NCBI GenBank assembly: GCA_002050125.1
Contig: MWTA01000084.1
Span: forward strand, 12,978 to 76,977
Direction: 5' to 3'
DNA: 64,000 nucleotides
Source: Anaerolineae bacterium UTCFX2
Lineage (GTDB): Bacteria > Chloroflexota > Anaerolineae > Anaerolineales > UBA4823
The notes under the pieces were generated by a model, which had not been told where the DNA came from, searched no databases, and was given only the letters and a program-made list of their open reading frames with translations. The position numbers and the translations under genes were made by a program. Shown one piece after another: positions 23,247 through 28,504 of this stretch (position 1 is the stretch's first letter; each line of letters opens with the position of its first letter).

Positions 23247-23804
23247 CTATGCGACTTCCGCGAGCGCCTTTCTTGCAAAAACGGCGCCTTCGGTCAAGGC
23301 TTTTGAGTTCAGCGGCAACAGGTGTTTATGACGTTCGGGCAGGTGCTTGGCAAGCGTTTTTTCAATCTCCTCGATGCTCAAGACGGGCAAGCGCTCAAGC
23401 AGTGCGCCCAACATCACCATGTTGATCAATTTCTTTTCGCCCAGCGATTCGGCGATTTCGATTGCGGGGACCATCACAACTGCCAGGTCATCACGATCGA
23501 AACTTCTGTCGACGAGCGATTTATTTACGATCAGAACTCCGCCGCTGGCGACGAGCGGTTCGTATTTGTCGAAGGACGGCAGGTTGAATACCATGGCTGC
23601 CTTGGGGTTACGAACGGTCGGCGCCCCGATTTCTTCATCCGCGACGATCACGGTGCAATTCGCTGTGCCGCCGCGCATTTCTGGACCATACGATGGAATC
23701 CAGGTGACGTTTTTGCCCGCATCCATCGCCGCATATGCAATCAATTGTCCGGCGAATAAAATTCCCTGACCGCCAAATCCGGCAATGATAATCTCTGTTT
23801 GCAT
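23247..23804 (-). CDS. 2-oxoacid:ferredoxin oxidoreductase, gamma subunit
   Basis: The 185-aa protein is the gamma chain of the enzymes that oxidatively decarboxylate 2-oxoacids to acyl-CoA with ferredoxin as acceptor. Family signatures are EIIIAGFGGQGILFAGQLIA, YGPEMRGGTANCTVIVADEEI and DKYEPLVASGGVLIVNKS. It is the last gene of a delta-alpha-beta-gamma operon, 17 bases after the beta gene. The gamma chain does not by itself tell pyruvate, 2-oxoglutarate and branched-chain enzymes apart. Confidence 0.93.
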   Translation of the reverse strand: MQTEIIIAGFGGQGILFAGQLIAYAAMDAGKNVTWIPSYGPEMRGGTANCTVIVADEEIGAPTVRNPKAAMVFNLPSFDKYEPLVASGGVLIVNKSLVDRSFDRDDLAVVMVPAIEIAESLGEKKLINMVMLGALLERLPVLSIEEIEKTLAKHLPERHKHLLPLNSKALTEGAVFARKALAEVA

Positions 23805-23821
23805 TTGATCGACTCCGCTGC

Positions 23822-24595
23822 CTATACTCTCAAACCTTCGAGGGCTGGATGAACTTTGAAATCTCCCAGTGGAAAGACCGGAATCATTCGTTCTTCAATA
23901 AACTTGAGCGATTCTTTTGGCGTTAGCCCCCAATTGGTTGGGCAAGAAGACAGAAGCTCGACAATCGCAAAGCCCAAGCCCCTTGTCTGGACTTCGAATG
24001 CCATGCGCAGAGCTTTTTTCGCAAGACGGATGTTTTTAGGATCGTGTAAACTGCGGCGCACGGCATAGCCGGTCCCTTGCATGGTCGCTAAAGCCTCTAC
24101 CATACGCAGAGGATAGCCCGCCTGTTCCACATCTCTACCGTCGGGCGACGAAGTGGTTTTCTGTCCTGGGAGGGTGGTTGGCGCCATTTGTCCGCCGGTC
24201 ATCCCGTAAATCGCGTTGTTGATGAAAATTACGGTGATGTTTTCACCGCGGCCGGAGGCGTGCATGATCTCTGCCATGCCAATCGAAGCCAGATCGCCAT
24301 CACCCTGGTATGCAAAGACCACGCGATCCGGCAAGACTCGTTTAATCCCGGTTGCCATGGCGGGGGCGCGCCCATGGGCGGCTTCGACAAAATCACAGTT
24401 AAAGAAATTGTAGGCAAAAACAGAACAGCCCACCGGCGCTACACCAATGGTGTTCTCGCGCAGTTCCATTTCGTCAAGCACCTCAGCGACCAGACGGTGG
24501 GCAATCCCATGCGTACAGCCGGGACAGTAAGTCGTTGGCGTCGAGGTCAAGGATTCAGGCCGTGAATATACAACTTGTGCTGGGACATCCATCAT
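23822..24595 (-). CDS. 2-oxoacid:ferredoxin oxidoreductase, beta (TPP-binding) subunit
   Basis: The 257-aa protein binds thiamine pyrophosphate and a 4Fe-4S cluster. It shows [15 protein letters not shown] (cluster Cys and TPP region), [30 protein letters not shown], the TPP motif [12 protein letters not shown] with [16 protein letters not shown], and [11 protein letters not shown]. This pattern fits the 2-oxoglutarate or branched-chain (KorB/VorA-like) members better than pyruvate synthase. A GGAGAA ribosome-binding site precedes the ATG. The final substrate is inferred, not shown. Confidence 0.93.
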
Positions 24596-24630
24596 GAACT
24601 TTTCTCCGTTTCAATGAATCATAAACAACA

Positions 24631-25746
24631 CTAGTTTAGGATTTCTTTCATCCGGCGAATCCATTTTTCCCGCGGATCGAACTCGATTGTCGGCGGGTGA
24701 TGGGCAATGCGTTCGATTTCAGTAAGCACCTCATCTTGAAACGGGACAACCCCGCCCAATCGACCGTAAAACTCGACCGGGATCTGACCCGCAACCGGGC
24801 GAAGCACGTCATCCAGCATTTGCCCGCTGTTCATCTCCACCACCAGCATTGCCTGGGCATGTGCGGCTAGCTCAGCCACTGCCTCGGAGGGGAACGGGCT
24901 CAAAGTGATCGGTCGCAACAGACCGACCCGAATCCCCTGCGCTCTGGCTGCCCGCACCGCTGAAAAGGCTACCCTTCCCGCGGTTCCGAACCCGACAACT
25001 ACGATTTCGGCGTCATCCAGGAAATATTCTTTATATCGCACTTCATTTTCTTTGATTTTTCCGGCTCTTTCGAGCAACCTGAGGTTAGTCACCTCTTCGT
25101 CTTCGGGGCGAATATAAATCGAGGACAGGATTCGGCGTTCTCGCCCTTTAGCGCCGCGCACTGCCCAATCCGGGATGGGTCGGTCAACCGGCTGCATTGG
25201 CGGCAGTTCTGCGGGTTCCATCATCTGACCGATATTTCCATCCGCGAGGACAAAGGTGAGCGCACGGTATTTTTCTGCCAGGTCGAACGCCATCACGGTG
25301 AAATCGATGGCTTCTTGCACGCTGGAGGGCGCCAGCACAATGGGGAAATAATCGCCGTGACCGCCTCCATGAACGATCTGGTTATAATCGCCTTGTGAGG
25401 GGGCTATATTCCCCAAGCCTGGACCGCCACGCATCACATCGATTAGCACAACTGGCAATTCAGTGCCAGCGATATATGAAATGCCTTCCATCATCAAGCT
25501 GACCCCCGGACTGGAGGAGGAACTCATGACCCGGACGCCAGTGCAGGCAGCGCCGTAGATCATATTAATTGCCGCAACTTCGCTTTCGGCTTGCAGAAAC
25601 GCCCGCCCAAGTTCCGGCATACGCTTCGACATCCATTCCAGCAGTTCAGTCTGAGGCGTGATGGGGTACCCGAAATAAGCCTGCACACCAGCGCGAACCG
25701 CTGCCTCAGCCATTGCTCGATTGCCTTCAAGTAATTCACGTGCCAT
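24631..25746 (-). CDS. 2-oxoacid:ferredoxin oxidoreductase, alpha subunit
   Basis: The 371-aa alpha chain contains the pyrimidine-binding and transketolase C-terminal-like domains. Signatures are LLEGNRAMAEAAVRAG, AYFGYPITPQTELLEW, AESEVAAINMIYGAACTG and VRVMSSSSSPGVSLMMEG. The start is set at 25746, where GGAGGA lies seven bases upstream; the longer open frame reaching 25860 overlaps the ferredoxin gene and has no family similarity there. In the four-subunit enzymes this chain pairs with beta to form the active site. Gene order and spacing (16 bases after delta) support one transcript. Confidence 0.93.
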   Translation of the reverse strand: MARELLEGNRAMAEAAVRAGVQAYFGYPITPQTELLEWMSKRMPELGRAFLQAESEVAAINMIYGAACTGVRVMSSSSSPGVSLMMEGISYIAGTELPVVLIDVMRGGPGLGNIAPSQGDYNQIVHGGGHGDYFPIVLAPSSVQEAIDFTVMAFDLAEKYRALTFVLADGNIGQMMEPAELPPMQPVDRPIPDWAVRGAKGRERRILSSIYIRPEDEEVTNLRLLERAGKIKENEVRYKEYFLDDAEIVVVGFGTAGRVAFSAVRAARAQGIRVGLLRPITLSPFPSEAVAELAAHAQAMLVVEMNSGQMLDDVLRPVAGQIPVEFYGRLGGVVPFQDEVLTEIERIAHHPPTIEFDPREKWIRRMKEILN

Positions 25747-25762
25747 TTCAGATCCTCCGGGG

Positions 25763-25999
25763 TCAGGCTTTGACGCGCACAGGCGTCTGCCGAAAAACGG
25801 TAATGGCGGCTTCAGGACAGACCACCGCGCAGATCGCACAACCGGTGCAGCCATCTGCAATCAGATGAACCGGGTGAAATCCCTTGGGTGTAAAAACCTC
25901 CATGTCCAGCGCCAAGACATTTTGGGGGCATTCTTCTATACACAGTTCGCAGCCTTTACAAAACCGGTGGTCCACTTCGATCCAACCCTTAACTGGCAT
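25763..25999 (-). CDS. 2-oxoacid:ferredoxin oxidoreductase, delta subunit (2x4Fe-4S ferredoxin)
   Basis: This 78-aa protein has two complete 4Fe-4S motifs, CKGCELCIEECP and CTGCAICAVVCP, as in the delta (ferredoxin-like) subunit that carries electrons out of the alpha-beta core. AGGAGGTC lies just before the ATG. It is the first gene of the operon delta-alpha-beta-gamma. The 209-base gap upstream (26000-26208) has no further gene I can support. Confidence 0.93.
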   Translation of the reverse strand: MPVKGWIEVDHRFCKGCELCIEECPQNVLALDMEVFTPKGFHPVHLIADGCTGCAICAVVCPEAAITVFRQTPVRVKA

Positions 26000-26208: not shown

Positions 26209-27516
26209 TCAAGGCTGTGCGAGAGGGGTGGATTGTGCGCTTTGTGCCAGGATAGCATCCTGCGCATTTTGAAGCGCTTGCTCGACGGGCAAGCTATGTT
26301 CAAAAAATGCGCGCAGGGCGGTCTCGATGTTTTGCTGATAAATGGAGAGCTCGGGAAAGTTAGGATATGCAGTTCCACCAGACAACGCAATCATCGCCTG
26401 GGTTACCAGATTTGCAGAAGCGGAATTGTCCAGATATACCTGATTAGCGCTGGGGATGAGCCCGTTTTTCGCCAACAGCGTCTGCGCTTCGGGCGAGACC
26501 AGATATTCCATGAATTCTATGGCTGCTCTTCGGTCTGCGGGGTTTGCGTTTGAATTCAGGTATATGTCCTCAGAGAGCACATAACCGGAAAGATGTCCGC
26601 TTCCATACCGCGGCCATGGGTCAATTGCCAGTTTTTCGGCGCCGATTGCCTCTTCCAGCGCGGCTAAATTCCAGGTCCCATCGATAATCCAGCCTACTTT
26701 TCCAGCTTTGAACCGTTCAAGATCGTCGTCGGAATAAGTGGCGGTTGGACCAGCCTGTTCAAATGATTTGAGCAATTCGAGCCATGCTACGCCCTTGCTG
26801 TTGTTGAACCCTGGCAAGCCGTTCGAGTCGATTAGCTGCCCTCCGATTCCGTTCAAATGGGCGCTGGAATACAAGAAGCTGCGTTCCAGGTATGCCCCAA
26901 TCACGTCGCCTTGAGACGAAGTCTGAGCCAATAAAACCAGATCATCGAATGTATCTGGCTTAATGGTGATGATGTCTTTGTTGCGAAACAGGACCACGCC
27001 CTGGATTGAGTAGGGCAGTCCAATCAGTTTCCCTTCCTGATTGGCTGTTTCCAAAGCAGGCTGGTTGAGCGTGTCGAGAACATTCGTATCAATCTCAGTC
27101 GTGAGATCTGCGACCAGCTTCTGGTCGTAAAGCAAGGGTCCCCATTCTGGTGGGGCAAGGAGCAAAGTCGGACCGATCCCCTCGCGCGAATCAGCTGCGA
27201 ACCGATCCAAGAGCGTTTCCTGCGGGATGTACATCACATCGAACATCACGTTCGGATGAAAAGCTTGAAAATTCTTGATGATTTGAGCCAGAACCGGTAG
27301 CTTCGCTTCATCCCACGAGTGCCGAATCGAAACCGTGCCGCGCAGAATCTCCTCCGTGGGGAAGACCGTTCTGACGGGGGGGCGGCTGGGCGTGTTTACG
27401 ATTGTGTCTGGTAGTTCTGGGATGGCTTGCGATGTGATATCAGCCGGTTTACATGCTGCTAAAGCGAGGAATAAAACTACAACCCAGAGACAAAAAACAG
27501 ACCTCGCGCCGTGCAT
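26209..27516 (-). CDS. Extracellular solute-binding lipoprotein (carbohydrate ABC type)
   Basis: The 435-aa protein begins with a lipoprotein signal ending LALAACKP (Cys at about residue 22). It resembles family-1 (sugar) binding proteins: SIRHSWDEAKLPVLAQIIKN, LIGLPYSIQGVVLFRNKDII, GKVGWIIDGTWNLAALEEA and RRAAIEFMEYLVSPEAQTLL. It would deliver a sugar or oligosaccharide to an ABC permease, but no permease or ATPase gene lies next to it. The start codon is only 7 bases after a TATAGT -10 box, so the mRNA is predicted to lack a leader. Confidence 0.88.
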   Translation of the reverse strand: MHGARSVFCLWVVVLFLALAACKPADITSQAIPELPDTIVNTPSRPPVRTVFPTEEILRGTVSIRHSWDEAKLPVLAQIIKNFQAFHPNVMFDVMYIPQETLLDRFAADSREGIGPTLLLAPPEWGPLLYDQKLVADLTTEIDTNVLDTLNQPALETANQEGKLIGLPYSIQGVVLFRNKDIITIKPDTFDDLVLLAQTSSQGDVIGAYLERSFLYSSAHLNGIGGQLIDSNGLPGFNNSKGVAWLELLKSFEQAGPTATYSDDDLERFKAGKVGWIIDGTWNLAALEEAIGAEKLAIDPWPRYGSGHLSGYVLSEDIYLNSNANPADRRAAIEFMEYLVSPEAQTLLAKNGLIPSANQVYLDNSASANLVTQAMIALSGGTAYPNFPELSIYQQNIETALRAFFEHSLPVEQALQNAQDAILAQSAQSTPLAQP

Positions 27517-27523
27517 GGAAATA

Positions 27524-27574
27524 ACTATACCAGGGTATCAGCGGTTTTTCAAGTTTAGCGATATCCATTATAAT
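27524..27574. promoter_or_regulatory. Divergent promoter pair with -10 boxes abutting both start codons
   Basis: Minus strand: -35 TTGAAA (27547-27552), 17-base spacer, -10 TATAGT (27524-27529), then 7 bases to the ATG at 27516. Plus strand: -35-like TTTTCA (27546-27551), 17-base spacer, -10 TATAAT followed by C (27569-27574), then 6 bases to the ATG at 27581. The two -35 elements overlap almost exactly. Both transcripts are predicted to begin at or next to their start codon. Confidence 0.7.
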
Positions 27575-27580
27575 CTGTAT

Positions 27581-28504
27581 ATGAACGATTCATCCGAGAT
27601 AAACGGCGTATTTGCGGCAGCGTTGACCCCACTGCATGAAAATGGATCGCTGGCTGAGGAAGAATTACCCGGCTTGCTCAAATTCCTCGCGCAACGCGGA
27701 GCCAACGGGGCGTTGCTGCTCGGAACCACGGGCGAAGGGCCGTCTTTCTCTCCGGAGGAACGGATCCGGATCGTCCGGGCGGGTATGCAGATTCGCCGGG
27801 AATTTCCGCATTTCAAGATTCTGGTAGGCAGCGGCACGCCGAGCCTGGAAGAGACGATTTCTATTAATAAAGCTGTTTTTGATTTGGGGGTTGACGGTGT
27901 GGTCGTGCTGCCCCCGTATTTCTTTCGAAATGCGCCCGAAGCTGGAATATTCGAATGGTTTTCGCAGGCGCTGCGGAGATCGGCGCCCACGGGCAAGGCT
28001 TTTCTCGTTTATCATATCCCCTCGCTGAGCGGCATAAATCTTTCAATGGATTTCTTTGACCGCCTCTTGACGTCATTTCCGGATCATTGCATCGGGATGA
28101 AAGATTCGAGCGCAGATCCGGATTTTGCGCGCCAACTGGGTCAACGCTTTGGATCCGCATTGAAGGTTTTTAATGGCACCGATTCGCTGTTCGATCTGGC
28201 GCTCGAAAACGCGGCTGCGGGATGTATCACCGCGATGGCTAATCTCAGATCGCCCGACTTGCGCCTGATTTGGAACGCGCGCCGGCAAGAGAAGGTAGAT
28301 CTCGCGGCGAAGGAGCGGGTGGTGCGCGGGCGGCTTCTGATGGAGCGTTTTCCTCCCAACCCGCCGCTCTATAAGGCGTTAATTCACCGTCTGCATGGCT
28401 TTCCATTATGGAACGTCCGACCTCCATTGGTTGATCTACCGCCGGCTCAGGTCGAGACTATACTTGCTCAAGTTCTTTCCGAGGCGCCGGAATTTTCCGC
28501 GTAA
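27581..28504 (+). CDS. DapA-family lyase/aldolase (dihydrodipicolinate synthase-like)
   Basis: Members of this family condense or cleave pyruvate-type substrates through a Lys Schiff base. The 307-aa protein has NGVFAAALTPLHENGSL, LLLGTTGEGPSFSPEER (GTTGE motif), Tyr144 in VYHIPS and the Schiff-base Lys174 in CIGMKDSS. The C-terminal part is less like true DapA, and no lysine-pathway genes are nearby, so it may be another member (for example a keto-acid aldolase). The ATG is directly downstream of a -10 box, and no ribosome-binding site is seen. Its divergent partner is a sugar-binding lipoprotein, which could fit a sugar-acid aldolase role (inference). Confidence 0.85.
   Translation: MNDSSEINGVFAAALTPLHENGSLAEEELPGLLKFLAQRGANGALLLGTTGEGPSFSPEERIRIVRAGMQIRREFPHFKILVGSGTPSLEETISINKAVFDLGVDGVVVLPPYFFRNAPEAGIFEWFSQALRRSAPTGKAFLVYHIPSLSGINLSMDFFDRLLTSFPDHCIGMKDSSADPDFARQLGQRFGSALKVFNGTDSLFDLALENAAAGCITAMANLRSPDLRLIWNARRQEKVDLAAKERVVRGRLLMERFPPNPPLYKALIHRLHGFPLWNVRPPLVDLPPAQVETILAQVLSEAPEFSA

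Follow-up and report, generated by a model that had tools for sequence, protein, structure and literature searches.

Two probable back-to-back promoters with predicted leaderless starts in the 64-bp gap between a lipoprotein gene and a dapA-family gene of an Anaerolineales bacterium

Introduction

How two genes transcribed away from each other can each be served by a complete promoter when 64 bp lies between their start codons is the question raised by a locus in the draft genome (contig C84; 2.92 Mb, 82.9% complete) of Anaerolineae bacterium UTCFX2. The whole stretch of DNA analysed, 64,000 nucleotides long, is termed the window here, and the divergent intergenic region occupies its positions 27517..27580. 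An initial annotation had read in this 64-base gap TTGAAA-17-TATAGT-7-ATG on the minus strand and TTTTCA-17-TATAAT-6-ATG on the plus strand, all of which is as the bases stand, and had gone on to propose a shared -35 region and the lack of a leader on both mRNAs. The answer that we consider likely is that the gap is made up of two complete back-to-back promoters with transcription starting at the ATGs, that both mRNAs are leaderless and that polymerases at the two sites are mutually exclusive.

Results

The two genes and their starts

The minus-strand gene (26209..27516) encodes an extracellular solute-binding lipoprotein of 435 aa with a match to Pfam SBP_bac_8 (E 3.2e-29) and an N-terminus, MHGARSVFCLWVVVLFLALAAC, in which a lipobox is present by pattern match. 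Its best NCBIfam match is MalE, at 56.5 bits versus a cut-off of 291, and, as it scores below the cut-off of any specific NCBIfam model, no substrate is assigned to it. ATG 27516 (codon 27516-27514) is its sole candidate start upstream of 27249. On the plus strand, 27581..28504 encodes a DapA/DHDPS-family enzyme of 307 aa (Pfam DHDPS, E 4e-37) that is not called a true DapA, and to which likewise no reaction is assigned, since its score against NCBIfam dapA is 123.3 bits, below the cut-off of 206. Its ATG (codon 27581-27583) falls in one alignment column, 8 residues ahead of an invariant G, in a comparison of seven sequences whose starts were chosen by the analyst. A Pfam scan of seven neighbourhood proteins revealed no regulator. 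Downstream of the lipoprotein gene and on the same strand is a cluster of three 2-oxoacid:ferredoxin oxidoreductase genes (23247-25860, minus strand; POR_N, TPP_enzyme_C, POR).

Promoter elements in the gap

On the lipoprotein side, the -35 hexamer TTGAAA (27552-27547, minus strand; 5/6) is followed after a 17-nt spacer by an extended -10, TGGTATAGT (27532-27524), in which TGG (27532-27530) precedes TATAGT (27529-27524), with the ATG 7 nt on. On the other strand the candidate -35 is TTTTCA (27546-27551; 4/6), again 17 nt from the -10, a perfect TATAAT (27569-27574) that has a conserved flank, TCC (27564-27566), two bases upstream and the ATG 6 nt downstream. Both promoters would be of the housekeeping-sigma type, one per gene. 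The lipoprotein promoter would be the more classical of the two, with its TTGAAA and extended -10, and that of the dapA-family gene would depend chiefly on the perfect TATAAT together with the conserved flank ahead of it, its poor -35 coinciding with that of the other promoter.

No Shine-Dalgarno sequence precedes either start, as read directly (AGTTATTTCC-ATG and AATCTGTAT-ATG), and on both strands the -10 ends 6-7 nt before the start codon, which is the placement that marks leaderless genes of the TA-led type. The predicted starts, 27516 or 27517 for the lipoprotein gene and 27581 for the dapA-family gene, are at or next to the ATGs, and both mRNAs should therefore be leaderless. RNA polymerase has a footprint of about -55 to +20, and the two predicted starts, 65 bp apart, place the opposed promoters by sequence at less than two such footprints. 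Because of that distance, polymerases at the two promoters are predicted to exclude each other.

The -35 hexamers do overlap, as initially annotated, but the 7 bases then taken to be common to both are the union of the two hexamers (27546-27552), which have 5 bases in common (27547-27551). Given starts 65 bp apart, exclusion of one polymerase by the other needs no shared -35, and to judge from the hexamers the overlap is probably less meaningful than had been held.

Conservation within the genus

In the closest relative, which is the one other genome of the genus in the search (G001), the dapA-family protein is 78% identical and the gap is likewise 64 bp long, with 45/64 bases identical. The longer blocks that are kept comprise TATACCAG, i.e. 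the minus-strand -10 and its extension, GTTT-TCAAG at the centre, and GATATCC-TTATAAT-TGTAT, the region of the plus-strand -10. At the position of the plus-strand -35 is TTATCA, also 4/6 and at exactly 17 nt. Differences between the two genomes are distributed over the three codon positions as 6/8/5 in the gap and as 53/30/144 in the first 900 bases of dapA, and the gap is thus judged not to be coding in the dapA frame, since it is without the third-position bias seen in dapA. A longer dapA product, from ATG 27515 or further up, is ruled out by these differences. As to the frame itself, it is open upstream to 27335 (about 80 codons), antisense to the 5′ end of the lipoprotein gene, and is open in G001 also; the open frames on the dapA side are of 405 aa in the window and in G001.

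How far chance could account for the arrangement

A scan of 7 kb for consensus promoters yielded 5 sites versus 4.4 expected (sd 2.0), and a count so near the chance expectation means that a single promoter match signifies little. The joint placement of two promoters, unlike single matches, stands out from chance. The gap was shuffled 100,000 times with its dinucleotides preserved, and a promoter was scored when it reached 10/12 or better and its -10 ended 5-8 nt from the end; the plus-strand promoter arose 217 times, the minus-strand one 290 times and both together never. A genome sample was assembled from the window and 20 further stretches (348,296 bases, about 12% of the genome, a non-random draw), and among its 2,644 CAT-N50..89-ATG placements just one, the gap at 27517-27580 itself, has both promoters at 9/12 or better. 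The shuffle and placement tests are measures of rarity and not blind predictions, as they were framed after the sequence had been seen.

Divergent lipoprotein/dapA-family loci in other genera

Adjacent, divergent lipoprotein and dapA-family genes were collected from 13 loci in 13 genomes of eight genera, the window's own locus (G000) included; the lipoprotein start is uncertain for some of these, and none was chosen for G030. TTGNNN-17-TGGTATA(G/T)T is present in 5/13 loci, from three genera (G000, G001, G028, G031 and G003), and it is in these five that the lipoprotein is most similar (48-100% identity). Absence of TGGTATANT from the other 8/13, where the lipoproteins are 38-43% identical, weighs against the preferred reading. 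A previous count, in which the lipoprotein promoter was kept in 5/5 relatives, was biased by the picking of loci for a visible motif, and is replaced by the 5/13 of the full divergent set. In four of the five loci the extended -10 is 6-7 nt from the ATG, and in G003 it is 49 nt away.

On the dapA side, TATAAT is 6-8 nt before the ATG in 8/13 loci and was not found nearby in 3/13. It is further off in G028 (29 nt) and G031 (28 nt), and the dapA-family gene would for that reason have a leader in both. (In G031 the dapA-family gene at this locus, L034, yields three separate matches, as a gene that was interrupted or misassembled would, and there is a run of N in the gap.) A leaderless-like placement on both sides is confined to G000 and G001, the two loci of this genus, i.e. 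2/13, which counts against the preferred reading. The promoters being kept in part of the relatives, the comparison supports the prediction that both mRNAs are leaderless.

The wider dapA family was sampled at the window's locus and at 80 others from genome contigs (81 in all), the start chosen at each being the one nearest to the aligned start. At 18/81, a perfect TATAAT precedes the ATG by 6-8 nt. The signature is absent from the remaining 63, which also counts against the preferred reading; many of these resemble, by eye, genes internal to operons or genes with a Shine-Dalgarno sequence. Two bases upstream of the -10, TCC recurs in 10 of the 18 leaderless-type loci (TCCNNTATAAT), and among the five TATAAT-6/7-ATG sites of the genome sample it is present at the window's dapA site alone. 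This flank could reflect shared descent or be an extended promoter element. In 16 leaderless-type dapA loci of more distant relationship (protein identity at most 56%), the best plus-side hexamer at 16-18 nt is 1-3/6, which makes the plus-strand -35 doubtful as a separate element. With the window's own plus-strand hexamer at 4/6, the overlap of the two -35s stands as a matter of sequence, but its part as a device, as first annotated, appears weak.

Leaderless starts and compact pairs in the order

The window's genome has 60 occurrences of TATAAT-6/7-ATG, compared with 24 at a spacing of 12-13 and 5 of the reversed pattern, and in each of the 41 genomes searched (41/41) TATAAT-6/7-ATG is present and outnumbers the 12/13 spacing. 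Leaderless genes have been predicted in 4/12 Chloroflexi genomes, at a mean of 4.7% of genes (Zheng et al. 2011, PMC3160421), and the excess at 6/7 agrees with that prediction, so that starting transcription at the ATG is, by prediction here, an ordinary option in the order. In the genome sample, where crude gene finding gave 283 genes in 348 kb, a perfect TATAAT precedes the start by 6 nt in two cases and by 7 nt in three; a second group, nine cases at 21-27 nt, consists of promoters with a short leader.

Compact arrangements with perfect -10s on both strands were sought in 201 genomes of the order. ATTATA-N20..50-TATAAT-6/7-ATG has a match in 172/201 and ATTATA-N51..81-TATAAT-6/7-ATG in 158/201, and 12 places per search, counted by eye among the matches listed, have an ATG on each side. 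Twenty of these places were fetched, namely all 12 listed for the shorter spacing and 8/12 for the longer. At 16/20, each of the two ATGs begins a reading frame that stays open for 133 codons or more, frames that run off the 2-kb stretch being counted by their visible part, and the other four fail on at least one side. The resulting 16 compact divergent pairs (L162-L165, L167-L172, L174-L176, L178, L179 and L181) have gaps of 44-97 bp with TATAAT 6-7 nt from both ATGs; at L168 the beginning of the plus-strand protein resembles, by eye, that of MutL. At none of the 20 places does a -35 hexamer exceed 4/6, and a rough look at the matches listed from the 201 genomes gave no sign of a preferred -10 to -10 distance, from which selection for a shared -35 could have been read. 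The window's pair illustrates well a compact arrangement that recurs, and has the better -35 on one of its sides.

Discussion

The shared -35 is where the initial annotation is weakest. The central -35 may be used by the lipoprotein promoter alone, the dapA-family promoter being driven by its -10 or dependent on an activator, with overlapping footprints but no shared -35, and we give this an even chance. The plus-strand hexamer, at 4/6 in the window and 1-3/6 in the distant leaderless-type loci, speaks for such a division of labour, and the centre bases kept between G000 and G001 are largely the minus-strand TTGA(A/T)A and its downstream flank. Against it, both genomes of the genus have a 4/6 hexamer, TTTTCA or TTATCA, at exactly 17 nt from the plus-strand -10. 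A -10-driven dapA-family promoter is a sharper form of the preferred reading, and both may hold together.

There are two further alternatives. Compactness might serve regulation instead of polymerase competition, a common regulator at the centre switching both genes, either together or oppositely. Retention of the divergent neighbourhood in 13 genomes of eight genera is in keeping with this, as is the precedent of LysG/LysE, where overlapping divergent promoters are under the control of a regulator and the lysE start is leaderless (PMC5648196). Yet the seven neighbourhood proteins scanned include no regulator by Pfam, what is conserved within the gap coincides largely with promoter elements, and such a switch seems unlikely. 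Still less probable is a leader on one side, with transcription initiated from a more upstream site within the opposite gene, and the -10 on that side being fortuitous. The longer leader on one side in G028, G031 and G003 and the openness of the dapA frame up to 27335 favour it, but the placement of the -10 on each side is kept in part of the relatives and the gap is without a coding signature. A single bidirectional promoter built on a symmetric -10 is ruled out by distance, there being 39 bases between the -10s and 65 bp between the predicted starts.

Two leaderless, mutually exclusive promoters would have several partial parallels. The window's genes are like the TA-led leaderless genes of PMC3160421 in that a hexamer of the TATAAT type precedes the ATG by about 12 nt and a Shine-Dalgarno sequence is absent, and Chloroflexi are among the phyla listed there, but here two genes of leaderless type stand back to back, and the word 'divergent' is absent from the main text of that paper. 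Nearer in form is the prpD (Rv1130)/Rv1129c pair of Mycobacterium tuberculosis (Cortes et al. 2013, PMC3898074), which is divergent and leaderless on both sides, as is predicted here; there the leaderless mRNAs were mapped experimentally and, unlike in the window, the pair includes a regulator beside its neighbour. A legend in the same paper describes closely juxtaposed divergent promoters as common in M. tuberculosis. The EcoRV CR/M genes (PMC5333194) also have divergent promoters with overlapping polymerase sites, and their transcription is coupled; the C transcript is not leaderless and the pair, unlike that of the window, encodes its control protein. Bidirectional promoters based on -10 symmetry (Middlemiss et al. 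2023, PMC10268837) are similar in having divergent starts within one short stretch, but those starts are 7-25 bp apart (mostly 18) with reciprocal -10s, as against 65 bp and two separate -10s in the window. In the literature searched, under the name Chloroflexi, no paper on this gene pair or on mapped leaderless starts in the phylum was found, and 'Chloroflexi', 'transcription start sites' and 'leaderless' co-occur solely in the prediction paper PMC3160421.

As an arrangement, the locus is a neat instance of a kind already known. If its starts are mapped, it would be a minimal natural case, with two genes lacking a leader and lacking room for independent polymerases, and the absence of both would therefore allow coupling by exclusion alone to be measured. 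The further pairs of this type in the order would supply replicates with different spacings. Compact back-to-back leaderless pairs may even be a standing architecture for gene pairs in the Anaerolineales, in which the start codon, the -10 and a central core are fused in gaps of 44-97 bp and polymerase exclusion would couple the genes without a regulator and without an untranslated leader on either side, a generalization that we put forward tentatively, as a doubtful one.
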